Below, in pieces: positions 283-22,527 of a stretch of DNA of 37,455 nt. The position numbers and the translations under genes were made by a program. Position 1 is the first letter of the stretch. Each line of letters starts with the position of its first letter. Source of the DNA: Thiobacillus sp. (GTDB lineage Bacteria > Pseudomonadota > Gammaproteobacteria > Burkholderiales > Thiobacillaceae); the NCBI GenBank assembly GCA_020057245.1, contig JAGVGD010000011.1, positions 1 to 37,455 of the forward strand. Reading direction: 5' to 3'. Below the pieces are notes generated by a model. It was not told where the DNA came from. It searched no databases and saw only the letters and a program-made list of their open reading frames with translations.

Positions 283-427
283 CCAGTGCAATTCCAGTTT
301 GGTTCAAGAATGCGGGCTGGGGACTGGACCCATAGGGATGGGGCGTCCGTGGCTGGCGATAGAGCGGTTCGCTCCAGATGTCTGGCCGTTGCCGGGATAT
401 GCGCCCCGGCTTTTGTCAAACAATATA

Positions 428-2297: not shown

Positions 2298-2864
2298 TTA
2301 GATCTTGCCGACCAGGTCGAGCGACGGCGCCAGCGTGGCTTCGCCTTCCTTCCATTTGGCCGGGCAGACTTCGCCGGGGTGGGCGGCGACGTATTGCGCA
2401 GCCTTGATCTTGCGCAGCAATTCCAGCGCATCGCGGCCTACGCCGCCGGCGTTGATCTCGATGATCTGAATCTTGCCCTGCGGGTCGATCACGAAGGTGC
2501 CGCGCTCGGCCAGACCGGCTTCTTCGATCATCACGCCGAAGTTGCGGGTGATGGCGCCGGTGGGATCGCCGATCATCGGGTACTGGATCTTGCCGATGGT
2601 GTCGGAGGTGTCGTGCCAGGCCTTGTGGGTGAAGTGGGTGTCGGTGGAGACAGCGTAGATTTCCACGCCCAGCTTCTTGAAGGTCTCGTAGTTGTCGGCC
2701 AGGTCGCCCAGCTCGGTCGGGCAGACGAAGGTGAAGTCGGCGGGGTAGAAGAACACCACGGACCACTTGCCTTTGAGTTCTTCGTCGGTGATGTGCTCGA
2801 ACTTGCCGTTCATGAAGGCTTCGGCTTTGAAGGGTTTGATTTCGGTGTTGATGAGGCTTTGCAT
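2298..2864 (-). CDS. ahpC: Alkyl hydroperoxide reductase subunit C (2-Cys peroxiredoxin)
   Basis: AhpC reduces hydrogen peroxide and organic hydroperoxides in the cytoplasm and is recycled by AhpF. The 188 residues show the peroxidatic site FVCPTE (Cys48), with the conserved Pro and Thr beside it, and the resolving Cys167 in EVCPAKW. This is the typical AhpC1/Prx1 arrangement and length. A GGAG lies 8 bases before the ATG at 2864. A second, divergent peroxiredoxin is found inside the heme operon at 21380-21901. The upstream region carries an AT-rich palindrome at 2915-2928 but no OxyR site that I can recognise. Confidence 0.97.
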
Positions 2865-3090: not shown

Positions 3091-5334
3091 TCAGAAGTTG
3101 TAGCTGATATTGAGCGTGTAATTGCGTCCCGGCTGGGTGTAGCGATCGGGCCCCGAACCGGAGTCCGCAACATGGTTGGGGTCGCTGACCGGCACGTCCG
3201 ACCATGGCGTGTACTTCTGGTTGGTCGCATTGAGTATGCCGAACGAGAGGTGTCCGTTTTCGGCAAACTCCCAGTGCGCGCGCAAGTCGAGCACCGCGTA
3301 GCCATCGGTCAGAAACTGCTTTTCAAGATTTCCGTTGTCTGCGTGGCGTGCATCGTCTTCCTGCTTCGCCGCCGCCATGGTCAGCATGGCCTCGGCTTGC
3401 CAGGCGGCCCGCTTGTAAGCAATACCCAGCACGCCGCTGAGCGGGTTGACGCTGTCGATCGGATTGCCGTTGCCTTCGCGTCCGCGCGCATAGGCCATGC
3501 TGCCGCGCATTTGCCAGTTGGGAGCCAGCATTTGCGTGAAACCGGCTTCAAGTCCGTAGATGCGGACGTCGTCGAGATTCTGGGGCTGAAATGCATCAAG
3601 GTAGGTGCCAGGTAGACTAGCCGGAACACACAATGGATCAGCTGTTGCCGGCGCGTCCGGGCAATTGAGTGTTTCAAGCCCGATGAAGTTTTCGTAATCC
3701 GTGTTGTAGGCGGTAATCGACCAGGTACCGCTGACGTGATTATGCAGCAGGCTCAATTCTTGTCCCTGCGAGTATTCAGGTTCGAGATTGGTATTGGGCA
3801 AGGAAACATAGCCGGCATTCACGTTGGAAAATCCGAAATTTGCGTCGTCGAAAGGCGGCGCGCGGAAGCCGAATACATAACGGCCCCTCAGTTCGTAACC
3901 TTCGGCGAAGTGCCAGATCGCGCCGATTTTCGGCGTGAAAGCGTCCGTCGTGTAAGACTGGGGCACCGGCTTCTGCTGGGCGAGAGGCAGACCTGTTCCC
4001 AGATAAATCGCGTCTGCCTCGGGATCGAGGTGGTAGTAGTCGTAACGCACGCCGAGTATCACAGTCCACGTATCCGACAGCATCCAGGTGTCCTGCCCAT
4101 ACAGGCCGAGTTCGTCCACCGTGGATCTCGGGTAGTCGCGGTCAGGATAGGGCACGCCAGAAACTTCGGAAACGCATATATTGAAGTCGGGATAGCATTC
4201 TTGTCCGGTTCGAAGTTCTTCCGTTTTCCGTTGGGTAAGATCCAGCCCCCAGATCAGGCGATGCGCACCCCGCGCTTCAAACAGGGAATCGAAACCGATT
4301 TTGAGGCCGGTAATCGCCTGCTCTACTTCAAATCCACGTGTGACGTAGGACGCTGGGTTGGAGGCCGAACGGTCGTCGAACGTATCCTGGGTGGTGGTGC
4401 TGGTCTGGTGGTAGAGCTTGATGTCGAGCGCGCCGATGGCCAGGCCGTCTATGCTCTGATCGAGGGAGATGCGCTGCCTGCGGTAGCGGTCTTCGGCAGT
4501 GGCAGCGATGGTGGTGCCGCGCACGATGGACAGGATATCGGTATTGATATCCTGTGCGAAACCTTCGAGGGTCAGCGTCGTGCGCAGATTCTGGTCCGGA
4601 ATCAAGGCGATTTTCAGGAGGCCGGACAGCACGTCGTCGTCCTGCGGGTTGGCAACGGTGCGGTCCGGGCCTTGCACGTCGAGCGTGCCCATGGCTTCCG
4701 TTTCGTGTCCGCTGCGGCGCACCGCGCGCAGCAGGAATTTGAGCGTGTCGTTGCCCGCCGCCAGTGTGGGGATCAGCGCCGCGGAATCGTTAGCGCTGTA
4801 ATACTGTCCCTCAATGCCGCCGCCCAGCGTCTGGCCGGGCACCAGCCAGTCTTCGGGCTCGGGTGTGACATAGGACACCGCGCCGCCAATGGCGCCTGAT
4901 CCGAACAGCACCGAATCGGGGCCGCGCAGGATATTGATGCTTTTCAGCAGGCTGACGTCGACCATGTTGCGGCCGGCGTTGGAATAGCCGCCGATTTTGA
5001 ATGCTTCGGGAAGATCCACACCGTCGATCTGCAGGCCGATGCGGTCGCCGTCGATGCCGCGGATGTTGTAGCCGGACAGACCAAAGCGGGAAGGGCTGTT
5101 GGTGACGGATACGCCGGGTTCGTAGCGTACGGCCGATTTAATGTTGCCCGCCATTTCGCGGCTGATTTGATCGCTGGTAATTGTGGTGGTGGTTGCGGTT
5201 TCGTCGAGGACGTCGTCGATAGCTTCGGCTTCAACCGAAACCGTGTCGAGCGCAGTTTCGGCAACGGCCTGCAGCGGCAGGCCGTGCCAACCAAACGCGA
5301 CCGCAAGCGCAAGCGCAAGCGGTTGGCGTGTCAT
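3091..5334 (-). CDS. TonB-dependent outer-membrane receptor, hemoglobin/heme-type
   Basis: The 747 residues read as a signal peptide (1 to about 26, containing a LALALA stretch encoded by three CGCAAG units at 5302-5319), a TonB-box-like LDTVSVEA at 29-36, a plug domain with YNIRGIDG and LRGPDSVLFGSGAIGG (about 136-151), and a long beta-barrel ending in the outer-membrane signature YNF. Barrel motifs FRAP (490-493) and NTNLEPE (514-520) resemble the FRAP/NPNL pair of heme and hemoglobin receptors. However, no His lies between them, where heme receptors of this kind usually carry a ligand, so the substrate is uncertain. The start overlaps the stop of the preceding PEP-CTERM gene as ATGA, which implies translational coupling. 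It is the last gene of the Fur-box operon starting at about 8911. Confidence 0.9.
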   Translation of the reverse strand: MTRQPLALALAVAFGWHGLPLQAVAETALDTVSVEAEAIDDVLDETATTTTITSDQISREMAGNIKSAVRYEPGVSVTNSPSRFGLSGYNIRGIDGDRIGLQIDGVDLPEAFKIGGYSNAGRNMVDVSLLKSINILRGPDSVLFGSGAIGGAVSYVTPEPEDWLVPGQTLGGGIEGQYYSANDSAALIPTLAAGNDTLKFLLRAVRRSGHETEAMGTLDVQGPDRTVANPQDDDVLSGLLKIALIPDQNLRTTLTLEGFAQDINTDILSIVRGTTIAATAEDRYRRQRISLDQSIDGLAIGALDIKLYHQTSTTTQDTFDDRSASNPASYVTRGFEVEQAITGLKIGFDSLFEARGAHRLIWGLDLTQRKTEELRTGQECYPDFNICVSEVSGVPYPDRDYPRSTVDELGLYGQDTWMLSDTWTVILGVRYDYYHLDPEADAIYLGTGLPLAQQKPVPQSYTTDAFTPKIGAIWHFAEGYELRGRYVFGFRAPPFDDANFGFSNVNAGYVSLPNTNLEPEYSQGQELSLLHNHVSGTWSITAYNTDYENFIGLETLNCPDAPATADPLCVPASLPGTYLDAFQPQNLDDVRIYGLEAGFTQMLAPNWQMRGSMAYARGREGNGNPIDSVNPLSGVLGIAYKRAAWQAEAMLTMAAAKQEDDARHADNGNLEKQFLTDGYAVLDLRAHWEFAENGHLSFGILNATNQKYTPWSDVPVSDPNHVADSGSGPDRYTQPGRNYTLNISYNF

Positions 5335-6053
5335 GCAGCGACGGCTTGTGCGGCCGGGTTGCGGCGACGTGTCTGCCAGCCCACCAGACCCAGGCCAGCG
5401 ATCAGCATGGCGTAGGTTTCGGGTTCGGGAACCGGCGCCGCGGCGATATCGACGGCGGCCTGGGCGAAGGCGGTGTGAACTGACGCCTCAATGGCGAAAG
5501 TGTAGCTGGTGGGCGCGACGGCGAGATCCCAGTAGAAAACAGCCTGGCGCAGGTCGACTTCGCCGAACGAGGACTGGAATGCAGGATCGGTAAAGGTCGT
5601 GGCTGCGTAGGTTGCTGCAACGCCATTGAGGGTCACCGAGGTCAGGTCGTTGCCCCACACTTCGACCTGCAGCACGGCGCGTACCGGGCCGGCCGGCACG
5701 CTGCCGGACAGGTTGATCGCGAAGGACTCGTCGACGGAGAAGCTGTACAGGTTGCCCGAGCCGGCCTTGAACGTGCCGCTGTTCCAGGCGATGTGTGCGT
5801 CGGTCGCGCCAAACGATCCGGAATCCGGCGCAGCCGTGCGGTCGTTGATGGCACCATAGGTGATGTCAGTGAAAGTGTCGAATTCCGCGTAGACGGTGCC
5901 GGCATCGCCGCGCGCCCAGCCGCCCCAGCTCGCTTCGGTCGGCGTATCGAAACCGAAGCCGGCTGCGTAGGGGTCGGGCATGTTGGTGAAATCGGCGAGA
6001 GCCGGGGCGGAGGCGAGCATGGCGGCGGCCAGCGTTGCAAGTTTGAAGTTCAT
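5331..6053 (-). CDS. PEP-CTERM surface protein, coupled to the receptor
   Basis: The 240 residues have an N-terminal signal peptide (1-20, ending ALA-D), a beta-rich body with no family I recognise, and a C-terminal sorting signal: VPEP (208-211), a hydrophobic stretch, then RRR and a short tail. PEP-CTERM signals are recognised by exosortase, so the protein is expected at or beyond the outer surface. No Cys is present. The start has AAGGGAAAC before the ATG. The stop codon overlaps the start of the TonB-dependent receptor, a sign of matched synthesis, so it may be a surface partner such as a ligand-binding lipoprotein-like accessory. That role is inferred from position only. Confidence 0.85.
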   Translation of the reverse strand: MNFKLATLAAAMLASAPALADFTNMPDPYAAGFGFDTPTEASWGGWARGDAGTVYAEFDTFTDITYGAINDRTAAPDSGSFGATDAHIAWNSGTFKAGSGNLYSFSVDESFAINLSGSVPAGPVRAVLQVEVWGNDLTSVTLNGVAATYAATTFTDPAFQSSFGEVDLRQAVFYWDLAVAPTSYTFAIEASVHTAFAQAAVDIAAAPVPEPETYAMLIAGLGLVGWQTRRRNPAAQAVAA

Positions 6054-6162
6054 GTTGTTTCCCTTTGTAAATTAATTAACAACCAACAATTCGCCCTTTC
6101 GGGCCCATCGTGCTGGCTGGTCGCAGGGACTGGCTGGCCAAATCTGGGGAGTGAAAGCCTTG

Positions 6163-7101
6163 TCAGGCGCGCGTGCTCCGGCGGCGCGCGGCGGCGAGCA
6201 CCAGCAGCGCACCCGCGCCAAACAGTGTGGCGTGCTGTGGCTCCGGCACGGCGCTGACCTGCCAGCCGACGTCGGCATAGCCGGCGTAATCGAGGGCGGT
6301 TGGCAGTTCGCGCAGGCCGCGCGTGGTGCTCGGATCCATCTGGGTTTCCTGAGCGACGCCGTCGACCGTGCTCATCACGCCTTCAGCCCAGTGCACGCCG
6401 TATTGATCGACTGGAACCGGGCCGCCGTAGACGACCATCGCATTCGTGCCGTTGAAATAGCCAGCTTCGTCGATCTGCGTATGCCAGGAATCGGCCTCGC
6501 CGAAACCGAGGATGTGGCCGAGCTCGTGCGTGGCCGTGGTGAGGAAGTCGGGATGGCCGGCGCTGAGGCCGCTGGCGTCGCTGCCGAAATACCAGACGTT
6601 GGCAGCGTTGAACCAGATCATGCCGCCCCAGATGCCGTAATCGGTGGCATCTTCGCCCACGGTATTGGCCTGGCCGCGGGTGGTTACCGCGTCGACGAAA
6701 GCATCCGAGCCGCTGGCCGTGAGATTGCTGCCGGTGTTAGCAAAGCCCAGCACGCCGGGCGCCGATTCGGACCCACCGACGTAGATGAGCAGGGTGTCGG
6801 CCGCGATGTCCAGGTTGCTCAGCGTGATTTGCGGACCCCCTAGACTGGGATGCGTGATCTTGACCGACCAGCTGTCGCCGGCCTGCGGGGCGATGGCCGT
6901 CAGGGAGTCGGTGAAGCCGCTGTAAAAAGAGGCGGCTTCGTCGAGCAGCGCGCGACGTTCGGTAATGGGCGCGCCGGTCAGCGTGTCGGTGAAGAAACCG
7001 CGGGTGTCGTAGGTGTAGTCGAATTCGATGGTGATGGCTTGTGCCGGCGCGCCAAAGGTGAGCGACAGCAGGGCGGCCAGGGGCAGGCTGAATTTAGTCA
7101 T
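6163..7101 (-). CDS. PEP-CTERM zinc metalloprotease with leishmanolysin-like layout
   Basis: From the ATG at 7101, 312 residues: signal peptide (1-22, ending AQA), catalytic region with HELGH (His192, Glu193, His196) followed by ILGFG, and C-terminal VPEP (285-288), hydrophobic helix and RRR. The classical metzincin third His at position 11 of the motif is Glu here. A later GVHWAEG (His237) and a Met in QMDPS (Met255) match the spacing pattern of leishmanolysin-type (M8-like) proteases, where the third zinc ligand lies far downstream. The end of the domain has LDYAGYADVGW, also common in such surface proteases. I prefer this start because it opens directly into the signal peptide and has GGAAA 8 bases upstream. 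It overlaps the preceding gene by 8 bases. Confidence 0.85.
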   Translation of the reverse strand: MTKFSLPLAALLSLTFGAPAQAITIEFDYTYDTRGFFTDTLTGAPITERRALLDEAASFYSGFTDSLTAIAPQAGDSWSVKITHPSLGGPQITLSNLDIAADTLLIYVGGSESAPGVLGFANTGSNLTASGSDAFVDAVTTRGQANTVGEDATDYGIWGGMIWFNAANVWYFGSDASGLSAGHPDFLTTATHELGHILGFGEADSWHTQIDEAGYFNGTNAMVVYGGPVPVDQYGVHWAEGVMSTVDGVAQETQMDPSTTRGLRELPTALDYAGYADVGWQVSAVPEPQHATLFGAGALLVLAAARRRSTRA

Positions 7102-7963
7102 GATGGTTTCCAAAGAGGGTGGCGTAACCGGCAGGCGGACGCTGCGGCACATGGCGGACATCGCTGTGAGTGGCATTGCCGGCTACGGCAGCCGCAGGCG
7201 GGCTGCGACGGAAGCGGCTCAGCTTCCAGCTACGCCGCCAGACGACGAGGGCGAGTCCGGCCAGCATGCTGATCCAGCCCGCCGGTTCGGGAACCGGCGA
7301 CAGCGGCGTGACCGAGCCGGTTCCTGCGCCATACACGCCCTGCAGGGCAACAGCCATGCCGGCATCGAGTGGGAAAAGCGGCCCTACATAAATCGAGCCT
7401 TCGATCACCAGCAGTGTGTCGCCCGGTGCGCCCTCCACGGAGTGGCCCATGCCGAGCGTGTGGCCGAGTTCGTGCTGGGCGACCGCGTAGAACAGTGTTG
7501 CGGTCCAGCCGAAGCCGAAGCGTTCTGCGTTGAACACGATGTCGCCGGCCAGGCCGCTGATTTCGGTATTCATCGGAAAGTAGGCGTAGGCATTCGCGTC
7601 GTCGATATGCGCCACCTGGCCGATGCGGATGTCCGTCAAACCGGCAGAGTCGTACTGGCCGGTTTCAGGCAAGGGGCCGGCATCGGCCACTTCCACAAAA
7701 TGGATCGGAAGGATGGCGGTGTAGTCGGCGAAAGCCTGTTCGAAGGCGCTTTTCAGCACGCTCGCAGAAATGGGGATGCCTGCGCCGCTGGCCATGCTGC
7801 CGTCGAGCAGTTTGCTGTAGCTGTAGGTCAGCGTGATCGGCGAACCCGCGCCGCCCGGCTGCGGCCAGCTTGCGTACATGGGGAAATAGCCCCCCCAGAC
7901 GCTGGCGGGCAACAGGCAGGCGAGCGTAAGGCACGCGCGCCGGATCGGGCGGAGCGGGTTCAT
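7094..7963 (-). CDS. PEP-CTERM matrixin-type metalloprotease
   Basis: The 289-residue protein begins with a basic stretch and hydrophobic signal (1-24). It contains the full metzincin motif HELGHTLGMGH (His164, Glu165, His168, His174), so the zinc site is complete and family M10-like activity is likely. VPEP at 224-227 is followed by a hydrophobic stretch and a basic cluster (RRSWKLSRFRR, about 243-253). Unusually for a PEP-CTERM protein, about 36 more residues follow that cluster, running into the start of the next gene. A late frameshift or genuine extension could explain this. It starts 9 bases after the preceding stop codon. Confidence 0.85.
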   Translation of the reverse strand: MNPLRPIRRACLTLACLLPASVWGGYFPMYASWPQPGGAGSPITLTYSYSKLLDGSMASGAGIPISASVLKSAFEQAFADYTAILPIHFVEVADAGPLPETGQYDSAGLTDIRIGQVAHIDDANAYAYFPMNTEISGLAGDIVFNAERFGFGWTATLFYAVAQHELGHTLGMGHSVEGAPGDTLLVIEGSIYVGPLFPLDAGMAVALQGVYGAGTGSVTPLSPVPEPAGWISMLAGLALVVWRRSWKLSRFRRSPPAAAVAGNATHSDVRHVPQRPPAGYATLFGNHHD

Positions 7964-7972
7964 GGCCGACGC

Positions 7973-8716
7973 TTAGCCGAGTTGACGCTTGCGACGTACC
8001 ATCCAGCCGGTCATGCCGAGGCCGGCCAGCAGCATGGCGTAGGTTTCCGGCTCCGGCACCGCGGTGACGGTCAGATAGGTCGAACCGAATGCAACGGCCG
8101 AATCGTTGTTGTTGAGAAAGCCATGCAGGATGTCGGCGCCCGAGGTGTCGTTCTTGCCCGTCATGGCAATCGTGAACACCGAGTTCGAGCCGTCGATCCA
8201 GCTGTTGACGATGCCAGACACGTTGAAGCTGACCGCACCGAAGCTGTTGATGACGGTGCTGGCGGCGCTGTCGGCAGCCAGAATGTTGTTGTTGTAGAAA
8301 TCGAGCCAGCCGATGCTGCCGCCGGGATTGTTGTCGTCGGTGATGCTGCTGAACGGATCGGCGTTCACGGCGTGCGCGGACACGGTGAACGGATTTGCCG
8401 CGCCCGCGTCGGCGCCAAAGCCGCCTTCGGTGCTCTGCAGGGTCAGCGTGGCGGTCACGGGGCCGCTGTAGCTGGCGAAATCCGCCGCATTGAACGACAG
8501 GTAAATGGTCTCCGCGCCGGCATTGCCGAAAGCGCCATCGGTCGATACGCGCATCACCGGGCGGTTGTCGCCGGGGTAGCCGCGAACGGTATTGGTGCCC
8601 TGGAAAAAAGACGAGGTCATCACGTCTTCGGTCGGGTTGATGGTGTCGGCTGCAGCGGCCTGAGACAGGGCCAGGCCACAGGCGATGGCGACGAGCGTAC
8701 GAGCGTTCTTGTTCAT
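7973..8716 (-). CDS. PEP-CTERM protein with DNRLRE/CBM96-like body, first gene of the operon
   Basis: From the ATG at 8716 (GGGGAAC just upstream) the protein has 247 residues, a signal peptide (1-23, ending AAA-D), a beta-sandwich-like body, and the C-terminal signal VPEPETYAMLLAGLG followed by RRKR. The body (INPTEDVMTSS..., repeated Ser/Thr/Asn-rich strands and GIVNSWIDGSNS) resembles the DNRLRE-type domain found on secreted adhesive or carbohydrate-binding proteins. That assignment is tentative. It is the first gene behind the Fur-box promoter and shares strand and close spacing with the two proteases, the third PEP-CTERM protein and the receptor. Confidence 0.8.
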   Translation of the reverse strand: MNKNARTLVAIACGLALSQAAAADTINPTEDVMTSSFFQGTNTVRGYPGDNRPVMRVSTDGAFGNAGAETIYLSFNAADFASYSGPVTATLTLQSTEGGFGADAGAANPFTVSAHAVNADPFSSITDDNNPGGSIGWLDFYNNNILAADSAASTVINSFGAVSFNVSGIVNSWIDGSNSVFTIAMTGKNDTSGADILHGFLNNNDSAVAFGSTYLTVTAVPEPETYAMLLAGLGMTGWMVRRKRQLG

Positions 8717-8910
8717 GTGTTCCCCACGAAATGATTGAGCCGAAAAATTGCGCAAAGCGCGGTATGGACTGGCTCATCCGTGAGGATTAGCTGGCAGGCG
8801 GAAGCAGGCTTCCGGTCTGAGCTGGCGCTTCGTTACCGAAGCAGGCTGGCACGACGGTTGGTCGTGCCCTGAAGGAGGTGGCAATACGCACGCCGGTTCA
8901 GGGCATGCGC
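8717..8910 (-). other. Structured 5' leader of the PEP-CTERM/receptor operon
   Basis: About 190 bases of untranslated leader contain three compact perfect hairpins: 8848-8868 (GGCACGAC/GTCGTGCC, 5-base loop), 8827-8842 (GCTTCG/CGAAGC, 4-base loop) and 8800-8813 (GGAAGC/GCTTCC). No T-run follows them and I recognise no known riboswitch consensus. No open frame of note is present. Confidence 0.5.
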
Positions 8911-8940
8911 ATATTCTAATAAATGAGAACGATTGTCAAT
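8911..8940 (-). promoter_or_regulatory. Promoter with Fur box for the PEP-CTERM protease/receptor operon
   Basis: The minus strand has a consensus -35 TTGACA (8939-8934) and -10 candidates TAGAAT (8918-8913, 15-base spacer) or GAATAT (8916-8911, 17-base spacer). The 15-mer TGAGAACGATTGTCA at 8924-8938 matches 12 of the 14 defined bases of the Fur 7-1-7 consensus TGATAATNATTATCA and overlaps the -35 and spacer. Confidence 0.8.
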
Positions 8941-8944
8941 ACTA

Positions 8945-9310
8945 TTATTGATTGATTTGTGAAACGGTCAGGAAGACCAGCTTGTTGCCGTCCGGATCGA
9001 CGATCAGCATGTCGCGGATATTCGGCCCGAGGCTGTTGCCGGGCGGGTCGGCGACGGACATGCCGCGCGCCAGAAACTCGGCGTTCAGGGCATCGACATC
9101 GGGCACGTAGAAATGCACTTTCGCGCCGAAGGCGCAGTCGCCGGTGTGCTCGGTGAGGAAAGTCTGCATGCCGTCGCGCGCCACGGCGGCGAAGATAGGA
9201 AAGCCGGGTTCGAACTGATGCGTCCATAGCTCGACGAAGCCGAGTTGTTCATAGAAGGACTTGCTGCTTGCGTAGGCACGGACGCGGAGGGCGGGGATGA
9301 CGGTCTGCAT
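8945..9310 (-). CDS. VOC-family (glyoxalase/bleomycin-resistance-like) protein
   Basis: The 121 residues form a vicinal-oxygen-chelate fold: RAYASSKSFYEQLGF at the first helix, a VHFYVPDVDAL second half, and the closing DPDGNKLVFL. The opening and closing motifs are those of bleomycin-resistance-like VOC proteins. Substrate cannot be deduced. AAGGAAAC precedes the ATG. It is the last member of a three-gene VOC group (one decayed) at the end of the hugZ/ferritin block, ending 6 bases before the Fur-box promoter of the next operon. Confidence 0.8.
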   Translation of the reverse strand: MQTVIPALRVRAYASSKSFYEQLGFVELWTHQFEPGFPIFAAVARDGMQTFLTEHTGDCAFGAKVHFYVPDVDALNAEFLARGMSVADPPGNSLGPNIRDMLIVDPDGNKLVFLTVSQINQ

Positions 9311-9353: not shown

Positions 9354-9790
9354 TCACGCTTGAATCGAATGGCTCGGATGTGCCCGTTCACGCAGCTAGA
9401 AGATGTTGCCCTCCGGATCGTGCCCGTCGCAGACGGCGCTGCCCTGAAACTGTCATAGGCTGTCTGGCGCATTCAACGTGCCACCCCATGCGCCGCCCCG
9501 TTCGCGCGCCGCTTCGTTGCTGTTGACGAAGAACGCCAGCTTGATCGGCGTATCCGTCCTGCGCGAGGGCGGGTTGGTTAACGCGATGGTGGCTGCGAGG
9601 GGAGCGGGGATGCGCACGATCACGAGCTGGAATCCAGGAGATAGAAGTACGACATGGTCGCTTTTCGCATGGCAGTTGGCGAGACCGGCCAGGGCGGCAT
9701 AAAAGGCGGCCATGCGCGGGTGGTCGAGCGCGTACAGGAGATTGCAGCGGCTTTGAGGTCGGTCGGCCCGGATGCGGCGACGGCCGTCAT
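9354..9790 (-). pseudogene. Decayed VOC-family gene
   Basis: Read on the minus strand, the frame MAAFYAALAGLANCHAKS... through KLAFFVNS and ERGGAWGG continues as LNAPDSL, an in-frame TGA where Trp is expected, QFQGSAVCDGHDPEGNIF, an in-frame TAG where Gln is expected, then LRERA. The DPEGNIF stretch after the first stop is the conserved VOC C-terminal motif, so the gene continued past it. The likely start, an ATG overlapping the upstream stop as ATGA at 9790-9787, is in a different frame, implying a frameshift near 9720-9750 as well. Two nonsense changes plus a frameshift make a functional protein unlikely. Confidence 0.75.
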
Positions 9791-10143
9791 GCTTGCGCCC
9801 CGACGCCGATGCGGTTGCCGTCCGGGTCGCGAAGGGCGAAATCGCGCATGCCGTAGTCGCGATCGCCGATCAGGCAATCGAACGCAATTCCCGAATCGGC
9901 CAGTCGAAGGTAGAAAGCATCTGTATCGTCCACCAGCAGATACAGTTCGCCACACCCGATCGCGGTGCGGGCGGCGCCGCGCGCATTGAGATTCAGATAG
10001 ACCGGGCCAAGATGCAGGCCGGCGTAGTACGGGGGCTCGCCGTAGCGGTAGTCGAGGGTGAATCCCAGCACGTCCCGGTAGAACGCAAGCGCGTTGTCCA
10101 GATTGGAGACATGGAATACGGGGGTACAGCCGAGTATCTGCAT
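9787..10143 (-). CDS. VOC-family (glyoxalase-like) protein
   Basis: The 118 residues show the two halves of a VOC domain: VFHVSNLDNALAFYRDVLGF at the start, ELYLLVDDTDAFYLRLAD in the middle and FALRDPDGNRIGV at the end. A GGAGG lies 5 bases before the ATG. It follows the DUF2325 gene by 12 bases and overlaps the decayed VOC gene by 4 bases, so the VOC genes were cotranslated. Function is probably small-molecule binding or detoxification, but there is no basis for a specific substrate. Confidence 0.85.
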   Translation of the reverse strand: MQILGCTPVFHVSNLDNALAFYRDVLGFTLDYRYGEPPYYAGLHLGPVYLNLNARGAARTAIGCGELYLLVDDTDAFYLRLADSGIAFDCLIGDRDYGMRDFALRDPDGNRIGVGAQA

Positions 10144-11536: not shown

Positions 11537-11989
11537 TTATGCCTTGTAGGGCTCGGTCTGTCCGGGCTTGCGCAGCATCTTGTTGACTTCGTCGGCGTGC
11601 GCGATTTCTTCCGCGATCATGCTGCGGGCGTATTCCTCCAGACGCACGTCCTTGTCCCTGACCAGTTCCAGCAACTGGTAATAGGCCTTGAGCGCCTCGC
11701 CTTCATGGATGAGCGATTCGCGCAGGATGTCGCCGATGTCGTGCTGATGGGTTTCGAGCAGGGGGCCGATGGCGAGCGAAGGGTGGCCGCCCAGCCAGGT
11801 CACCAGTTCGCCGGCCTGGCGGGCATGCAGCAGGCCTTCGTCTGCGTTCTTCTGCATCCAGTCGACGATGGGAATGCGGTTGAAGCCGTACACCATGAGG
11901 GCGTAGTGCGTGTAGCGCACCACGCCGGCCAGTTCCAGTTCCATGATGCGGTTGAGGATGGCAACGATTTTTTTCTGGTTCGGTTTCAT
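11537..11989 (-). CDS. Ferritin-like (bacterioferritin-type) protein
   Basis: A four-helix diiron protein of 150 residues. Iron-ligand candidates are the Glu pair in MELELAGVVRY, the Glu/His of DEGLLHARQ and the EEIAHADE repeat near the C-terminus. Family members store iron or oxidise Fe(II). I chose the second of two ATGs (11989) because AAGGAGC lies 7 bases before it. The ATG at 11995 is only 1 base from the same Shine-Dalgarno and would be too close. Its neighbours are hugZ upstream and the DUF2325 gene downstream, so the block links heme breakdown with iron storage. Confidence 0.85.
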   Translation of the reverse strand: MKPNQKKIVAILNRIMELELAGVVRYTHYALMVYGFNRIPIVDWMQKNADEGLLHARQAGELVTWLGGHPSLAIGPLLETHQHDIGDILRESLIHEGEALKAYYQLLELVRDKDVRLEEYARSMIAEEIAHADEVNKMLRKPGQTEPYKA

Positions 11990-12074
11990 GTTCATGCTCC
12001 TTGGCGGTGAGAGAGGAAATGCGAGGGCAGGGCGCGGGGCGCACCGCTCTCGTAGTTCTTGATATGGCCCGTAC

Positions 12075-12641
12075 TCAGGCTGCCGTGTTCTCGCTTTGCA
12101 GCTGGTCGAAGCGCTCGCCCGCTTCCTTGCTCGCGGCGCGGTGGCCGACGTCGTTGATGTGGCGCACGTTGTCGAGATCAGCGCCTTCGACCACGAAAGC
12201 GCGGGCGAAACCGGACACGTAGGTGGCCTTGAGCGGGTGCAGGCGATAGAGGTGGAAGTCCTTCATGTCGCGCAGCGTGTCGATCATGTTGCCAAATTTT
12301 TGCGAGAACTTTTCCATCATCGGTGTGAACTCGGCTTCGTCGCGCGGCATGTGATGGGCGGTGCACTGGTAGGTGGTGCGTTTGCGGGCGAACAGGTTCT
12401 TGCTGTCGGATTCGTTTTCGATGAAGAACACGCTGACCTTGCCCTGTTCCTTGAGGTTGCGCGTGTGCGCGGCGAGTTCGCTGATGTAGACGTAGAAATC
12501 GCTGCCCTGGCGTACATAGGCGGCATAGCTGGCGTTGGGTACGCCTTCGCTGCTGACGGTGGCCATCAGCAGGGAGTCGAAGCGCTCGGGAAAGCCTTCA
12601 TATTCGGCGCGTACGGTTTCAAGATCGATGTTTGCAGACAT
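12075..12641 (-). CDS. hugZ: HugZ-type heme utilisation protein (FMN-binding-fold heme oxygenase)
   Basis: HugZ/HutZ proteins have the split-barrel fold of pyridoxamine-phosphate oxidases and bind and cleave heme. The 188 residues contain SLLMATVSSEGVPNASYAAYV and FYVYISELAAHTRNL, both typical of the family, and a C-terminal stretch LHPLKATYVSGFARAF that matches the part that contacts heme. The ATG at 12641 follows TGGAGAAATA. The gene starts a block with the ferritin-like and DUF2325 genes. Its promoter is not obvious: no Fur box is seen in the 314 bases upstream. Confidence 0.85.
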   Translation of the reverse strand: MSANIDLETVRAEYEGFPERFDSLLMATVSSEGVPNASYAAYVRQGSDFYVYISELAAHTRNLKEQGKVSVFFIENESDSKNLFARKRTTYQCTAHHMPRDEAEFTPMMEKFSQKFGNMIDTLRDMKDFHLYRLHPLKATYVSGFARAFVVEGADLDNVRHINDVGHRAASKEAGERFDQLQSENTAA

Positions 12642-12955
12642 GGGTATTTCTCCAGGGTTGGGCAGCGGACCGGCCACACGGATCACGGACCCAGTCGTCC
12701 GCCAGGGCGTACTGAATACCGTGTCATTCGTTGGCAGGTGCCAGCCGCATATGACTAAAAATTCGGCTGGCGAGGTGAGGAACCTGGCTGGCGGGTGGGG
12801 TGGGTCCGCAATGGCGAACGCCGTTCAAAACCTGGCTCGCGTGGGAGAGTTCCCGGCTGGCTGGTGAGGGGTGCGCACTGGGCGCGAATTCTGGTCAGAT
12901 TAGCGTGCATCTCCTGTGCGGACAAGGGGGCTCGGAGCGGGCATCGATGCGGCGC
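12642..12955 (-). other. Intergenic region with degenerate short repeats
   Basis: The 314 bases hold no convincing gene. Four degenerate copies of a GC-rich unit around GGCTGGCGNGGTGAGG occur at about 12764-12780, 12783-12800, 12831-12847 and 12852-12869. No Fur box, terminator or clear promoter is visible. It separates the ABC exporter at the end of the heme operon from hugZ. Confidence 0.35.
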
Positions 12956-14765: not shown

Positions 14766-15902
14766 TCATGGCGCGGCTGCGGGCTGCGTAATTTTGGGCG
14801 GGCTGAATTCGAACGGAATCCGCAGCCGCGCCGCAACCGGCTTGCCCTGGCGCAGCGGCGGCTCGAATCGCCACCGTGCCAGCGCCGTCGCCGCGCTCCA
14901 GCCAAATTCCGGGTGGGCGGCGTCGATAATGCGCGGCAGGTGGACGCGCCCTTCGGTATCCAGGATGAACTCGATCGTCACAGCCTCTTGCAGGCTCTGT
15001 TGGACAAGCGTGCGCGGGTAGGGCGGTGCAACGCGATAGCGTACGGCGGGCACCTGATCCAGATCGCGCAAGGCGAAAAGGTTCGCATCGGGTTGGCCTG
15101 CACGCTTGAGCAGATTCTGGTCGATGTCCGACAGTGCGGTATCCCGGTCTGAACCGGAAAACATCTGGGTCTTGACGAAATATGCCGCCGTGGGCTGATC
15201 GTTGCGGCGAGCAGGCTTGAACGCCCAGGACTCGAGCATGGCGGCAGTGGCAAGACCGAATTCAGGATGGCTTGCTTCAATCACATGCGTTTCCGTCACC
15301 CGCCCCGTTTTGCCAACAATGAACGCGACCTGGGCCGAGCCCTCGATCCCATGTTGTGCGAGGTCATGGGGATAAACCGGCAGTGTTGCCAGAACGGATT
15401 TGGGCGGAATGTCGTATTGCAGCATGGCCGGCAAGCGATCGTCGCTCGATTTCGGCATGGCGTAAGGACGCACGCCATCGTTTGCATAAAAGCGGCTTGG
15501 TGGCTGAATGTATTTGAACTGAATCGTCAAAACGACCGTTGCCTCGACCGGTTGGCCGGCACGCGTTGCCGGTTCCATCTGGACGTCGAGCAGCTTGTCG
15601 ACGACGGCGGCTTCGATCGCAGCATGATGCGACAGCAGCACAGCAAGATCCTTGATTTTTCCGGTGGACGATACGCGCACCCGCACCAGAACATTACCCA
15701 CGATTCCGCTGCCATGCAGACGCTCGGGATATTCAACAGTGAACAGCTTGGGCAGGCGTGGCGCAGTGTCGTAGCCCTTTTGTGGCGCGATCTGGGCGGG
15801 CGGAGCGGGGGGCTGCGTGCGTTCAACCGGCATGCTGGACAGCGCCGGCAAAGCAAGGAGACAGAGAAGCAGACTTGTATATGGGACGAACGATGTGCGC
15901 AT
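14766..15902 (-). CDS. Periplasmic protein with three tandem TonB C-terminal domains
   Basis: The 378-residue protein has a signal-like N-terminus (about 1-23), a short Pro/Gln linker, and three repeats of the TonB C-terminal fold at about 52-131, 169-249 and 288-367. Each repeat has the same course: a YP motif, GxV/VxF/IEF beta strand, TGR/TGK/EGR turn, and a W/F-F-K/E-P closing strand, e.g. ESWAFKPA and ARWRFEPP. Normal TonB has one such domain and a long membrane anchor plus Pro linker, both absent here. It may bind receptor TonB boxes or peptidoglycan without passing energy, or may use them as a scaffold. It lies in the heme operon, 38 bases after a small gene. Confidence 0.8.
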   Translation of the reverse strand: MRTSFVPYTSLLLCLLALPALSSMPVERTQPPAPPAQIAPQKGYDTAPRLPKLFTVEYPERLHGSGIVGNVLVRVRVSSTGKIKDLAVLLSHHAAIEAAVVDKLLDVQMEPATRAGQPVEATVVLTIQFKYIQPPSRFYANDGVRPYAMPKSSDDRLPAMLQYDIPPKSVLATLPVYPHDLAQHGIEGSAQVAFIVGKTGRVTETHVIEASHPEFGLATAAMLESWAFKPARRNDQPTAAYFVKTQMFSGSDRDTALSDIDQNLLKRAGQPDANLFALRDLDQVPAVRYRVAPPYPRTLVQQSLQEAVTIEFILDTEGRVHLPRIIDAAHPEFGWSAATALARWRFEPPLRQGKPVAARLRIPFEFSPPKITQPAAAP

Positions 15903-16855: not shown

Positions 16856-17641
16856 TCAGGCAGCGGCGCGGGTGTGGACCCACAGTTCGCCGTTGGGGGT
16901 GGTGTGGCATTCGGCGGCGACGTGGTAGGTCGCCATCAGCTGATCAGGGGTCAGCACTTCGGCGGGCGTGCCACAGGCGGCGAGCCGGCCCTGGTCGAGC
17001 AGCACGATGCGGTCGGCATAGCGCGCGGCAAGATTGAGATCGTGCAGCACGGCGATGACGGCAAAGCGGTGCGCGCGTGTCAGGTCGCGCGCCATTTTGA
17101 GCAGGCTGTGCTGGTGGGTGATGTCGAGCGCGGCCGTGGGTTCGTCGAGAAACAGCAGGCGCTGCTGGGTGTCGCCCGGCCACACCTGCGCCAGCGCACG
17201 CGCGAATTGCACGCGTGCCATTTCGCCGCCGGACAGGCGCGGGTAGGGGCGTTTGGCGAGGTGCGCGGCATCGGCGGCTTGCAGCGCCTGATCGACGATG
17301 TCCCAGTCGTGCGCGGTGGTGTGGCGCTGGCAATGCGGGTAGCGGCCCATCATCACCACTTCGCGCGCGGAAAAGGCGAACTCCAGATGCGTGTCCTGCC
17401 GCATCACGGCGCGGACGCGGGCGAGTTCGAGCGGAATCCAGTTGCCCAGCGGCCGCCCTTCGATCGCGACATCGCCGCTGTCGGGGATGAATTCGCCCGC
17501 CATAACTTTGAGCAGGGTGGATTTTCCTGCGCCGTTGGGGCCGAGGATGGCGAGGACTTCGCCCGCGCGCGCCGACAGGCTGACGTCGTCGAGCAAAGCG
17601 CGGCCGCCGCGCGAGACGGATATTTTGCTGGCGTAAATCAA
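16856..17641 (-). CDS. hmuV: Hemin ABC transporter ATP-binding protein
   Basis: The ATPase of the HmuTUV heme importer. From a TTG start it has 261 residues: Walker A GPNGAGKST (34-42), signature LSGGE (136-140), Walker B LLFLDEPTAALD (162-173) and the H-loop His200 (LHDLN). The TTG start overlaps the hmuU stop as TTGA, and GAGGAAAAG lies upstream, which together fix the start in the absence of an ATG. It is translationally coupled to hmuU and precedes the S4 paralog. Length and motifs are normal for FecE/HmuV-type ATPases. Confidence 0.92.
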   Translation of the reverse strand: MIYASKISVSRGGRALLDDVSLSARAGEVLAILGPNGAGKSTLLKVMAGEFIPDSGDVAIEGRPLGNWIPLELARVRAVMRQDTHLEFAFSAREVVMMGRYPHCQRHTTAHDWDIVDQALQAADAAHLAKRPYPRLSGGEMARVQFARALAQVWPGDTQQRLLFLDEPTAALDITHQHSLLKMARDLTRAHRFAVIAVLHDLNLAARYADRIVLLDQGRLAACGTPAEVLTPDQLMATYHVAAECHTTPNGELWVHTRAAA

Positions 17642-18720
17642 GATTCTTTTCCTCGTTTTGCGAGCAGCCAGATGAAGAAGGGCGCGCCGATCAGTGCGGT
17701 CAGCACGCCGAGCGGCAGTTCGGCCGGCACGATGAGGGTGCGCGCGCCCATGTCGGCGATGACGACCAGCAGCGCGCCCATCAGCATCGATACTGGCAGG
17801 GCGCGGTGGTGGTCGGGTCCGAGCAGCAGGCGGGCGAGGCTGGGCACCACCAGGCCGACGAAGCCGATCATGCCGGTGAAAGCGACGAGGACGCCGACGG
17901 CGGCGGCCACGCCGAGAAAGATCCGCCGTTTGACGGTCTGCACGTCGACGCCCAGGTGCGCGGCTTCGGCTTCTCCCAGCAGCAAGGCGTTGAGCGCTTG
18001 CGCCTGCCGCATGAACACGGCGGCGACGAGGGCGACGACCGCGCTGCACAGGGCGACGATGGTCCAGTTGGCCGCACCGAGGCCGCCGAGGGTGAAGAAG
18101 GTGAGGTTGCGCAGCTGCTCGTCGTTGGCAAAAACGCTGAATGCGCCGAGACCGGCGCCGGCCAGCGCATTGATGGCAATGCCGGCGAGCAGCATCGAGG
18201 CAATGTCCGACATGCCGGCACGGGTGCCGAGCCGATAGACCAGCAGGGCCGCGGCCAGCCCGCCCGCAAAGGCGGCGACCGGCAGCAGCCACATCCGCAG
18301 TTCGGGAAAGACCAGCGGGGCGATCAGGTTGCCGAGCAGGATGATGAAGCCGGCGCCGAGCGCCGCACCGCCGGAAACGCCCACCAGGCCAGGGTCGGCC
18401 AGCGGATTGCGGAACAGCCCCTGCAGGGCGGCGCCGCAAATGGCCAGACCGGCGCCAGTGACCAGGCCCAGCAGCACGCGCGGAAAGCGCAGATGAATGA
18501 ACAGCGCGGCTTCGCCGGGCGTGAAATAGCGGCTGGTGTCGAAACCGAGCTGGCTCGCCAGGATGGCCAGGATATGGCTGGGCGGAATCTCGACTGCGCC
18601 GATGCCGGCGGCGGCCAGGGTGGCTAGCACCAGCAGCACGACCAGACCCGCGATCAGCAGGGTTGCGGAAGGTGCGAACGGGAAGCGTGGCTTGGGCAGG
18701 GGTTGCACGAGCGTATTCAT
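17638..18720 (-). CDS. hmuU: Hemin ABC transporter permease
   Basis: The 360-residue protein of the FecCD/BtuC family shows about ten hydrophobic segments and the family's ATPase-contact motif region (MSDIASMLLAGIAINALAG). GLFRNPLADPGLVG is the hallmark of the substrate-path helix in heme and siderophore permeases. Start at the ATG at 18720, preceded by GAAGGG. It imports heme from HmuT across the inner membrane with HmuV. It follows hmuT by 88 bases and overlaps hmuV by 4. Confidence 0.93.
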   Translation of the reverse strand: MNTLVQPLPKPRFPFAPSATLLIAGLVVLLVLATLAAAGIGAVEIPPSHILAILASQLGFDTSRYFTPGEAALFIHLRFPRVLLGLVTGAGLAICGAALQGLFRNPLADPGLVGVSGGAALGAGFIILLGNLIAPLVFPELRMWLLPVAAFAGGLAAALLVYRLGTRAGMSDIASMLLAGIAINALAGAGLGAFSVFANDEQLRNLTFFTLGGLGAANWTIVALCSAVVALVAAVFMRQAQALNALLLGEAEAAHLGVDVQTVKRRIFLGVAAAVGVLVAFTGMIGFVGLVVPSLARLLLGPDHHRALPVSMLMGALLVVIADMGARTLIVPAELPLGVLTALIGAPFFIWLLAKRGKES

Positions 18721-18808: not shown

Positions 18809-19657
18809 TCATTCCAGCCCCCGCGCATTTTTGGCGAGCTGTTCCACCGCCTGCGGCAGACGTGGTCCGAAACCCAGCAGGAACAGACCGTCGTAGGCGA
18901 GCACCCGTTTGTTGCGCGCGGCTGGGGTTTCCGCCATGCCCGGGCGCTTGAGCAGGGCCGCGGTGCCACCCATGCCCTCGACCGATTGCACGGTGGTGAC
19001 GATGACATCGGGCGCTGCGGCGGCCAGCGACTCGGCCGAAATGGCTTTGTAGCCGTGGAATTCCAGGGCGTTGACGCACCCCGCCAGCTTGAGTACGGCA
19101 TCGGCGGCAGTATCGCGCCCGGCCAGGTTGAGCGCCGGGCCGCCGTGAGACATCACGAATACCGCGCGTGGACGGCTGCCGAGCCGGGCGACGCCCGCTT
19201 GGGTGCGCTGCCATTCTGCTTCGAATTGGCGGATGCGTGCCGCCGCGCGTTCGGGTTGCCCCAAGGCTTCACCGATGGCGCGCAGCTTGTCGACCGGCGA
19301 CGCGGCGGTGTATGCAGTGGGCAACGACACCCAGCGCACGCCTGCGCTCTTGATCTGCGCCAGCACGGCGGGCGGGCCCGCGTCTTCCGACGCGAGGATC
19401 AGGCTGGGCGCCAGCGATAACAGGCCTTCGGCCGACAGTGCGCGCAGATACCCCACGCGCGGCAGGCGTTCGGCGACGGCCGGGAAGGTGCTAGTGGTGT
19501 CGGCGGCGATCAGGCTGCGTTCCAGCCCCAATGCATAGATGGATTCGGTGATTGCGCCGCCCACGCTGACGACGCGCGAGGGCCCTGCCGCATGCCCCTG
19601 GACATGCGGCAGGGCAAGCGCGCTGGCAGCCAGACCGAGAAAATCGCGACGTTTCAT
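18809..19657 (-). CDS. hmuT: Periplasmic heme-binding protein of the HmuTUV importer
   Basis: The 282-residue substrate-binding protein of the BtuF/HmuT type begins MKRRDFLGLAAS, a twin-arginine-like motif with hydrophobic region and a GHA-AG cleavage region at about residues 22-25, so export may be through Tat. The mature part has RVVSVGGAITESIYALG and PRVGYLRALSAEG, the signatures of heme-binding proteins of this family, with Tyr candidates for the heme ligand. The start overlaps the stop of the preceding ABM gene as ATGA. It hands heme to HmuU. A Tat signal for a substrate-binding protein is less common than a Sec signal, but is seen in heme importers. Confidence 0.9.
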   Translation of the reverse strand: MKRRDFLGLAASALALPHVQGHAAGPSRVVSVGGAITESIYALGLERSLIAADTTSTFPAVAERLPRVGYLRALSAEGLLSLAPSLILASEDAGPPAVLAQIKSAGVRWVSLPTAYTAASPVDKLRAIGEALGQPERAAARIRQFEAEWQRTQAGVARLGSRPRAVFVMSHGGPALNLAGRDTAADAVLKLAGCVNALEFHGYKAISAESLAAAAPDVIVTTVQSVEGMGGTAALLKRPGMAETPAARNKRVLAYDGLFLLGFGPRLPQAVEQLAKNARGLE

Positions 19658-19977
19658 GCCGCCCGTCTTCCGGCCCGGCGAACCTGTTTGTCTTCGCTGA
19701 AACTGGTTTCGATGGGCGCAGAAAAATCATGGCGCGACAGGCCCATGCCATTGAGCATCCATACGCCTACCCAGGAGCGGGTGAAATGGTCGAAGCTGGC
19801 CTGGCTGTCCCAATCCAGTGACAGGGTAAAGGCATCGCGCCGGCCGCGCGGGTCGTCGAATTCGTGCGAGACCAGCCCCAGCGCCTGCTGCAGGGTTTCC
19901 CGCGCGGCTTGATAGCCGTGGCGGAAATGATCCTGGTAGCGCGGCAGCACATGAAAACGGTAGGCAATCCTCAGCAT
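19654..19977 (-). CDS. Antibiotic-biosynthesis-monooxygenase-like protein, between hmuS and hmuT
   Basis: The 107-residue protein has the ferredoxin-like ABM fold: MLRIAYRFHVLPRYQDHFRHGY at the start, a second strand pair FTLSLDWDSQASFDHFTRS, and a C-terminal basic tail. ABM-fold proteins of similar size include the heme-degrading IsdG/HmuQ group. His and Asn/Arg ligands of that group cannot be assigned with confidence, so a generic monooxygenase or detoxifier is possible. Its start overlaps the hmuS stop by one base (TAATG) and its stop overlaps the hmuT start, so it is made in step with the heme importer. Confidence 0.65.
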   Translation of the reverse strand: MLRIAYRFHVLPRYQDHFRHGYQAARETLQQALGLVSHEFDDPRGRRDAFTLSLDWDSQASFDHFTRSWVGVWMLNGMGLSRHDFSAPIETSFSEDKQVRRAGRRAA

Positions 19978-21047
19978 TAGCGGGCCTCCATGCTTTCAGC
20001 CAGCGTGCGCCATTCGTTGGTTTCGGGAATGCCGGGTTTGCGCTTGCCGAAAAAGTAGGCAATGAAATCGCCGTTGCGGTCGAACAGTTCGATCGAGGTG
20101 ACGACGCCGTCCGCAGTGGGCTTTTTCACCAGCCAGACTTGGCCGACCAGGTCTTCGCGCAGATGCAGGTTGAAGTCGGGGTCGAGCACGTTGATCCACG
20201 GCCCCATGCGCTGGATGTCCTTGACCGGGCCGGTATGAATCTGGATGCAGCCGGGGTTGCCGACGAAGATCATGATGTCGAGGCCGCTGGCGGCCGCGGC
20301 CTGCATGACGCGTGCCGGCGTTGCGGTCAACAGCGGCTTGGCGAATTCTTCTCCCGCCAGCCGGAATGCCTGGGTGCGGCCGACCTTGTGTTTTTTCAGC
20401 AGGCCGAAGAACTGGTGGGTGTCGGTCATGGCGCGCCAGTCGGCGCGCAGGGCCTCGACGTCGATCTCGCTATCCGGGCGGTCTGGCGTGACGCCGGCTG
20501 GACGCGGTAGCACGGTTTCACCCGGAATTTGCAGCCGGGCGGCCCAGGCGTCGCACAGGGCTTCGAATGCGAAGGGATCGCCTTCGTCGCGCAGGAAAAT
20601 TTTATGGATGGCATCGCCGCAGGCGTCGAAAAACTGGAATGAGCGGCGCGTGGTGGCGCCGACCTTTTCCGTAACGGCATAGGCAAAGGCCCATTTGTCG
20701 TAGAACAGGCGCAGGTCGATGGCATCGCCCAGCACCAGGCCGACGTGATCGCCATGGCTGATGTTCGTGTAGAGGCCGTCCTTTTCGTGCACGGCGGCCT
20801 CGTTGCGGGTGAGCGCCATGACGCGGCCGAGTTCGCCCATGCGCATCATCAGTTCCGGCAGGTTACCCGACAGGCGCACCACATGTTCACCCACGCCGGT
20901 GGCGAGCAGCTGTGCTTCGGACACGCCGAGCTGTTGTGCGGCATCGCGGATGCGCAGGCTTTGCTGTGCGGTCAGGCTATGCCAGGCCTCGCGCAGGGCT
21001 TGCGGTGAGGCGTGAAGGAGTTCCCTCGATTGGGCGGCGATGTTCAT
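19977..21047 (-). CDS. hmuS: Hemin-degrading/trafficking factor HmuS
   Basis: HmuS/ChuS proteins bind heme in the cytoplasm and act as heme oxygenase or trafficker. The 356 residues fit the usual two-repeat length. Both halves have family features: AWHSLTAQQSLRIRDAA and VVRLSGNLPELMMRMG in the first, ADWRAMTDTHQFFGLLKKH, GCIQIHTGPVKDIQ and PDFNLHLREDLVGQVW in the second. The heme-coordinating His of the second half lies in the IHTGPV/HLRED region. It starts 4 bases inside the preceding gene's stop (ATGA). Confidence 0.93.
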   Translation of the reverse strand: MNIAAQSRELLHASPQALREAWHSLTAQQSLRIRDAAQQLGVSEAQLLATGVGEHVVRLSGNLPELMMRMGELGRVMALTRNEAAVHEKDGLYTNISHGDHVGLVLGDAIDLRLFYDKWAFAYAVTEKVGATTRRSFQFFDACGDAIHKIFLRDEGDPFAFEALCDAWAARLQIPGETVLPRPAGVTPDRPDSEIDVEALRADWRAMTDTHQFFGLLKKHKVGRTQAFRLAGEEFAKPLLTATPARVMQAAAASGLDIMIFVGNPGCIQIHTGPVKDIQRMGPWINVLDPDFNLHLREDLVGQVWLVKKPTADGVVTSIELFDRNGDFIAYFFGKRKPGIPETNEWRTLAESMEAR

Positions 21048-22245: not shown

Positions 22246-22464
22246 TTACTTGGTGAGGATCAATTTGCCGTTTTTGGTGATGCGCAGGCGGTAGTGTTCG
22301 CCGTTATGGTTGATCAGGATTTCCTGAGTGCCCCGGAATAAAAATTCCGTCGGGATTGCCCCCGGCGGAAAAGACCGCGTTCCGGGTGCTACCGGATTAC
22401 GGCTGGAGATCGAAGTACCGGTTTGCATGGTGTCGGATTCCGCTTCGGGTTGATCGGGGTTCAT
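22246..22464 (-). CDS. hemP: Hemin uptake protein HemP
   Basis: HemP is a small protein that is needed for heme use in some bacteria and acts in iron-dependent expression of heme-uptake genes. The 72 residues end with the family signature: FLFRG, EILINHNGEHY and RLRITKNGKLILTK. The variable N-terminal 40 residues are Pro/Ser rich. It is the first gene behind the Fur-box promoter and is followed by the rest of the heme operon after 91 bases. Confident family match at the C-terminus. Confidence 0.92.
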   Translation of the reverse strand: MNPDQPEAESDTMQTGTSISSRNPVAPGTRSFPPGAIPTEFLFRGTQEILINHNGEHYRLRITKNGKLILTK

Positions 22465-22498
22465 GTATGAGGCCGCTGTCTTTATTTTGTGTGTTACG

Positions 22499-22527
22499 AA
22501 TAATAACGATTCTCATTTGTAAGTCAA
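22499..22527 (-). promoter_or_regulatory. Heme-operon promoter with Fur box
   Basis: On the minus strand -35 TTGACT (22527-22522), 16-base spacer, -10 TATTAT (22505-22500), both five of six to consensus. The 15-mer TGAGAATCGTTATTA (22515-22501) matches 11 of 14 defined bases of the Fur consensus and overlaps the -10, so iron represses the operon. The start lies about 35 bases upstream of hemP. Confidence 0.8.

Follow-up and report, generated by a model that had tools for sequence, protein, structure and literature searches.

A Fur-associated heme-uptake island in Thiobacillus with a putative exosortase-sorted surface module

Five consecutive genes, g1 to g5, lie on the - strand of a 37,455-nucleotide stretch of DNA from Thiobacillus sp., a relative of free-living methanol users (contig JAGVGD010000011.1; this whole analyzed stretch is called the window), and they encode four proteins with PEP-CTERM-type tails, two of them predicted metalloproteases, and a TonB-dependent receptor of the heme type. 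We read the gene set as a variant of Hmu/Phu heme uptake with an added exosortase-sorted surface module. Fur-controlled heme uptake is well supported because of the gene set and its recurrence in other genomes, and we consider it probable that a sorted surface module takes part in it. The gene set and order, the protein families, the Fur-like sites, and the co-occurrence and recurrence of these features are read directly from sequence; the release of heme by the proteases is suggested by the co-occurrence, the common Fur-like sites, and the surface-sorting tails.

The existence and order of the five genes, as given in the first-pass annotation of this DNA, are confirmed, as is their close spacing: g1 and g2 are 9 nucleotides apart, g2 and g3 overlap by 8, g3 and g4 are separated by 109, and g4 and g5 overlap as ATGA. 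The protein of g1 (7973..8716, -) belongs with the FxDxF-type PEP-CTERM proteins (NF038126, 50.4 bits for a cut-off of 50); the DNRLRE identity first proposed for it scores below threshold (NF033679, 25.8 bits for a cut-off of 34) and is rejected as its main domain, leaving a weak similarity. The predicted metalloprotease g2 (7094..7963, -) matches the matrixin (M10) profile PF00413 at 29.6 bits, above the cut-off of 24, and carries the zinc motif as HELGHTLGMGH. This motif, HExxHxxGxxH, is kept in all five g2 orthologues, and in the same five, read by eye, the Met-turn methionine, which is a defining feature of metzincins, is absent at the expected place. Because of that absence, we keep the matrixin-type label for profile and motif and do not class g2 as a full M10 member, although it may act like an M10 protease. 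Its C-terminus (7094-7225, -) runs some 35-40 residues past the PEP-CTERM region, unlike the orthologue in genome G040, and could be a real extension or a sequencing quirk. For g3 (6163..7101, -), the M10 profile reaches 18.0 bits, under the cut-off of 24, and the best match of the predicted fold is leishmanolysin, in agreement with the original leishmanolysin-like assignment. Leishmanolysins combine HExxH, a third His after an insertion, and a Met-turn; HExxH and a distant His are invariant in 18 of 18 g3 relatives, and the clade to which g3 belongs (clade A, below) has MDP, which completes the M8 pattern. The gap between g3 and g4 (6054-6162) holds a AGCCAGTCCC..GACCAGCCAG stretch, and a similar one stands in G040 (L030 11926-12040). 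The fourth gene, g4 (5331..6053, -), encodes a PEP-CTERM beta-sandwich protein (predicted model with a mean local confidence, pLDDT, of 79.5) whose family neighbors heme receptors.

That all four of these proteins carry a PEP-CTERM tail, as originally described, holds to different degrees. The tails of g1 and g4 clear the Pfam cut-off of 20.7 bits (34.2 and 32.9, respectively), g2 is borderline (19.2 in the protein scan and 22.0 in the genome scan), and g3 is weak (12.7 in the protein scan), with a tail that nevertheless has VPEP, a hydrophobic stretch, and Arg. An exosortase gene is present in the genome (241.5 bits), and exosortase was found in four of four genomes tested. These sorting tails point to a surface location for g1-g4.

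The receptor g5 (3091..5334, -) matches TIGR01786 over its full length (residues 30-747) at 407.9 bits, above the cut-off of 323.75, and the closest solved chain by sequence is PhuR (8the, E = 1e-92), followed by TbpA (1e-23). These results uphold the earlier description of a TonB-dependent receptor and mark g5 as a PhuR-type heme/hemoglobin receptor. We take the axial heme ligands of PhuR to be a plug His and a loop Tyr; in the alignment, the loop Tyr is kept (AGY), while the plug His is replaced by Gly in g5 and by Ser in the G040 receptor. Heme is the probable cargo, and this assignment is better supported because hemP, hmuSTUV, tonB, and a hutZ-like gene share the window with g5.

These genes form a wider heme island on the same strand. 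From upstream, the order is HemP (22246..22464, -; PF10636, 64 bits for a cut-off of 25, with the match at 22249-22347), a redoxin, the HemS/ChuX-type heme-utilization protein HmuS (19977..21047, -; PF05171, 279.5), an ABM-like small protein (19654..19977, -; PF03992, 21.4, under the cut-off of 23.1), HmuT (18830..19582, -), HmuU (17653..18600, -), and the heme ATP-binding cassette (ABC) ATPase HmuV (16871..17644, -; NF010068, 328 for a cut-off of 261). HmuT and HmuU are named by similarity and position rather than by a heme-specific profile: the HmuT-like periplasmic binding protein is 45% identical to the protein at the same position in locus L030 of G040, and the HmuU-like permease is 51% identical to its L030 counterpart, with matches to BtuC/FecD-type profiles that lie below their cut-offs. 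With hemP, hmuS, hmuT, hmuU, and hmuV all present, the window contains an Hmu heme ABC uptake operon. After HmuV come a TonB with three TonB_C stretches in one chain (14766..15902, -; PF03544, 133), an MsbA-like ABC transporter, a HutZ/HugZ-like candidate heme oxygenase (12075..12686, -), a ferritin-like protein (11537..11995, -; PF00210, 66.1), a DUF2325 protein, two glyoxalases, g1-g5, the peroxiredoxin AhpC (2298..2864, -; TIGR03137, 348 for a cut-off of 272), and a gene taken for AhpF, judged by sequence. The function of the HutZ-like protein is a guess because its TIGR04110 score of 157 lies below the equivalog cut-off of 225. Thus, the five genes are not a standalone unit, a view that we reject given hemP, hmuSTUV, and tonB on the same strand.

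A different cargo for g5, such as another metal chelate or iron from a carrier protein, with the hmu genes served by another receptor, would fit the loss of the PhuR plug His, the fact that TIGR01786 also covers transferrin and lactoferrin receptors, and the 8 kb that separate the five-gene unit from the hmu genes in the window. We consider this highly improbable, given how far PhuR exceeds TbpA as the nearest solved relative, the presence of hmu genes in the same fetched stretch as g4 in 9 of the 12 genomes with a g4 match (none of note were seen in the fetched stretches of G345, G151, and G142), and the finding that g5 matches only itself in its own genome at E = 1e-40, in an assembly that is 82% complete.

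Two small features accompany the island. An 80-residue uncharacterized protein (21912-22154, -) lies between hemP and hmuS, and a similar-looking one occupies the same place in G064 (L084 3903-4199, +). Glyoxalase-fold proteins adjoin protease/heme units both in the window (9787-10143 and 8945-9310, -) and in G376 (L053 10828-11367, -).

To examine how far the arrangement is conserved, 59 relatives were searched, 35 of them from the same genus, and close matches to both g2 and g4 were found only in G040, a member of another family. In its locus, L030, the complete set of five follows immediately after hmuSTUV with the order unchanged, and the identities to the window are 63, 70, 71, 59, and 46% from g1 to g5. 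A search of genome contigs with g3 gave ten loci. In Methylophilus (L031 and L033), g2-g3 is convergent with a run of smallX (a small upstream partner), a g4 relative, and a heme-type receptor, and this set is also present in G858, a third genome of the Methylophilus genus group; among profiles, the L031 receptor matches TIGR01785 (heme/hemoglobin) best, at 257.9, which is below the cut-off of 316.85. The same g3 search of plasmids gave only two weak partial matches, and we reject plasmid-borne spread. Within the order, g2 is rare (2 of 399 genomes; the three order samples are taken as the same 399 genomes, as their size and handles agree). The expectation that gene order would be conserved in relatives is therefore borne out, in full by G040 and in parts elsewhere. 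The idea of a single conserved unit is narrowed to two modules, (g1)-g2-g3 and g4-receptor, which stand together in G040; in the Methylophilus-type genomes, each has a Fur-like site of its own, and a single transcript is therefore not essential.

The g4-receptor module recurs more widely than the protease pair. The g4 profile matches in 12 of the 399 genomes, and a heme-type receptor directly follows g4 in 11 of them (the window, G040, G376, G192, G345, G064, G288, G151, G402, G107, and G060), the exception being G142, whose g4 is a solitary gene preceded by a Fur-like site; G151 has, in addition to its module, another solitary g4-like gene. Profiles identify the receptor in three cases (the window, G040, and G376, which scores 281.9 where the cut-off is 316.85); for the remaining eight, the identification is by 35-59% identity to the L031 receptor. 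It is this adjacency in 11 of the 12 that leads us to interpret g4 as a putative receptor partner. Tandem g4 copies lie between smallX and the heme-type receptor, three in L089 (10892-12923) and two in L090 (8337-9748), which suggests diversification of the receptor partner. Spread of g4 beyond the order is rejected: among 398 genomes of the phylum, eight have a profile match, full-length only in the window and G060, and the other six cover part of a profile that includes the PEP-CTERM tail, the best being G084 (positions 47-194, E = 2e-11).

The g4 family lacks conserved His or Cys, and its most conserved candidate ligands are Tyr82 (18 of 19) and Tyr34 (16 of 19). The predicted fold matches listed are carbohydrate-binding and Eph-like sandwiches. 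We therefore do not assign g4 as a classical hemophore, given the lack of conserved His/Cys; no known hemophore appears among the 50 fold matches listed, a result that excludes nothing. The small partner smallX (~60 residues, RGQKE..I.C.KQYRFV.D) occurs in the run in 9 of the 12 g4 genomes and in the three Methylophilus-type genomes; it was not found in the window, L087, or L088, and Pfam holds no match for it. An hhalign comparison places its core in register with HemP (probability 28.5, E = 6e-4), which is only suggestive. A role as a general HemP replacement is rejected, as HemP-like open reading frames (identified by eye) precede hmuS in L084 and L085, both of which have smallX.

Fur-like sites were scored by a 6-bp-overlap consensus with a maximum of 38. 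The site upstream of g1 (8919..8949, -), which contains TTGACAATCGTTCTCATT, scores 25; Markov simulations predict 0.225 such sites per window, and simulations of the upstream region reach this score in 2 of 200 runs. A second site, also scoring 25, precedes hemP and the hmu genes (22496..22520, -), and the strongest in the window (422-458, -; 29/38) lies next to ahpCF, before the start of a TonB-like gene (1-282, identified by eye) that is cut by the end of the contig. Because the whole-window scan is weak when taken alone (1.45 single sites of score at least 13 are expected per window), we rely on comparison between clades. The core of the g1 site is near-identical to one upstream of Methylophilus g2, and in the three Methylophilus-type genomes, sites scoring 28-31 precede both the g2-g3 and the smallX-g4-receptor units. 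Upstream scans took the best site within 300 bases of each unit, with gene starts picked by hand. A score of at least 25 was reached at 13 of 18 starts of g4-module or lone-g4 units, compared with 8 of 126 other genes at the same loci; for a score of at least 28, the counts are 9 of 18 and 1 of 126. The unit starts without a score of at least 25 are those of L030, L084, L085, L087, and L091. The runs of L084 and L085 start further upstream, with the HemP-like reading frame, where Fur-like sites of 25 and 30 are found; the L087 stretch begins inside hmuS, and L053 and L082 are near copies. By upstream scoring, the site is not kept in G040 (L030). The g1 site is thus moderate alone and convincing by comparison between genomes, in line with the Fur-box promoter first placed there, and Fur control of the units is well supported.

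Relatives of g3 split in the tree into clade A (9 genes: the window, G040, the three Methylophilus-type genomes, G376, G060, G849, and G851) and clade B (15 genes), with support of 100/99. A Fur-like score of at least 24 within 300 bases upstream is found for 8 of 9 clade-A units, G040 being the one without, whereas clade B has one such unit among 15 (Fisher p = 1e-4). In L055 (clade B), an additional site scoring 26 overlaps the start codon, and counting it gives p = 5e-4, or 1e-3 if the window is also left out. In the fetched stretches of the 15 clade-B loci, no g2, smallX, g4-family, or hmu genes were seen, and two loci have distant TonB-receptor similarity (~50 bits). In six clade-A genomes, the g4-receptor module is adjacent or close to the protease, and in G060 it is on another contig; the 18-19 kb surrounding the g3 of G849 and G851 showed no such module. 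In G376, a ribosomal protein S4-like gene (L053 9965-10576, +) lies directly downstream of the clade-A protease with a Fur-like site. Within the order sample, the g4-receptor module is present in four of four clade-A genomes versus none of the eight other g3-like genomes, one of which, G300, has a partial gene that was left out of the tree. The co-occurrence of clade A and the module (4/4 versus 11/399) has p = 3e-7, although two of the four are the seeds (the window and G040); without these, it is 2/2 versus 9/397 (p = 5e-4), and without G376 too, whose g4 is in the search profile, it is 1/1 (p = 0.02). As the genomes are related to different degrees, these p values should be taken as no more than a guide. 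Adjacency by itself cannot account for the link, since g3 and the module are on different contigs in G060.

This distribution also bears on what the proteases do. As general scavengers induced by iron starvation, they would supply protein for nitrogen or carbon, and their proximity to heme genes would be a regulon convenience. This would account for the clade-A g3 that stands alone in its fetched stretch in G060, G849, and G851, with Fur-like scores of 28, 24, and 27, and for clade B, whose members belong to the same family, for the most part lack Fur-like sites, and have no heme genes close by. The constant company of clade-A proteases and the heme module in the sampled genomes, with or without the seeds, makes this quite improbable, as does the finding that g2-g3 pairs, present in five genomes, adjoin g4 and a heme-type receptor in all five. 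Conversely, heme uptake under Fur could be right and the proteases could act on the cell's own surface, trimming or shedding g4, g1, or the receptor, or remodeling a PEP-CTERM-carrying matrix. All four proteins have PEP-CTERM-type tails and would meet at the same place, and in both the window and G040, g2, g3, and g4 are arranged as if on one transcript. We regard such a role as unlikely: 7 of the 11 sampled genomes with the g4-receptor module have no clade-A protease match, so g4 and the receptor seem not to need it. By the same count, the proteases resemble an accessory that would broaden the range of heme sources.

We propose that iron starvation would take Fur off the promoters and that g1-g4 would be exported and then sorted by exosortase to the cell surface. 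There, g2 and g3, as two metzincin-type proteases, would cleave heme proteins close to the cell, and g4 (perhaps with g1) would serve as a surface partner of the receptor, holding the substrate or heme-bearing fragments. TonB-powered import of heme through g5 would be followed by its transfer to the cytoplasm by HmuTUV, its use by HmuS and the HutZ-like protein, and the handling of iron and peroxide by ferritin and AhpC. The protease activity and its substrate are predicted from family and context. A bolder version, which we hold as tentative and on balance doubtful, is a distinct betaproteobacterial heme piracy in which the PEP-CTERM route carries dedicated Fur-controlled heme capture. In it, g4 would be the standing receptor partner, and the metzincin pair would act at the surface to digest the heme proteins of other organisms. 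Plausible targets are c-type cytochromes, as their covalently bound heme would be obtainable only by proteolysis, and the cargo would be heme-peptides. If Fur-controlled acquisition with the surface module is correct, nutrient uptake would become a testable function for PEP-CTERM proteins, a group with many members of no known role, and environmental betaproteobacteria would join the oral pathogen whose gingipains are a known case of surface proteolysis for heme. Together, the g4 family, smallX, and a heme-type receptor make up a compact module that recurs and is open to testing in Methylophilus strains amenable to cultivation.

Among known systems, the PEP-CTERM/exosortase proteins share with the window the signal peptide, the PEP-CTERM tail, and the exosortase in the genome. 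They have also been tied to flocculation. Their usual tie, according to an excerpt of PMC8788690, is to exopolysaccharide. These ties differ from Fur-controlled heme uptake, and no description linking PEP-CTERM/exosortase to heme uptake, a Fur box, or iron acquisition was found in the openly licensed PubMed Central (PMC) literature, subscription papers and preprints being outside the search. The proposal of a new iron-acquisition unit is consistent with that result; what it missed, as its stretch ended at 8940, is that the five genes are part of a larger Hmu/Phu-type heme island.

The gingipains of Porphyromonas gingivalis are cysteine proteases sorted by another route, type IX, and g4 lacks conserved His/Cys; the likeness considered here is one of logic. 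That logic, surface proteases together with a surface heme protein and a TonB-dependent heme receptor, is the one set out for gingipains and HmuY/HmuR in part of PMC10100897. The proteases of the window, metzincin-type with surface-sorting tails, also differ from the Fus ferredoxin uptake system of Pectobacterium. In Fus, the protein is taken up and then processed within the cell by the M16 protease FusC. We reject membership in that system, as the proteases here match M10 and leishmanolysin and not M16; the likeness lies in a TonB-dependent receptor and proteolytic processing that win iron from protein, as passages of PMC7593965 describe. The hemophore HphA of Acinetobacter, compared by description and not by sequence, resembles the window in having a surface or secreted partner that serves a heme uptake locus (from an extract of PMC8560813), but its export depends on Slam, whereas the signal here is of the exosortase type. 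The Phu/Hmu system of Proteobacteria (PhuR, HmuSTUV, HemP), of which we read the gene set as a variant, shares the PhuR-type receptor, the periplasmic binding protein, permease, and ATPase, the HemS-type protein, HemP, and the Fur-like sites; to this, the window adds a PEP-CTERM partner and two metzincin-type proteases with PEP-CTERM-type tails, behind a receptor that has not kept the PhuR plug His.

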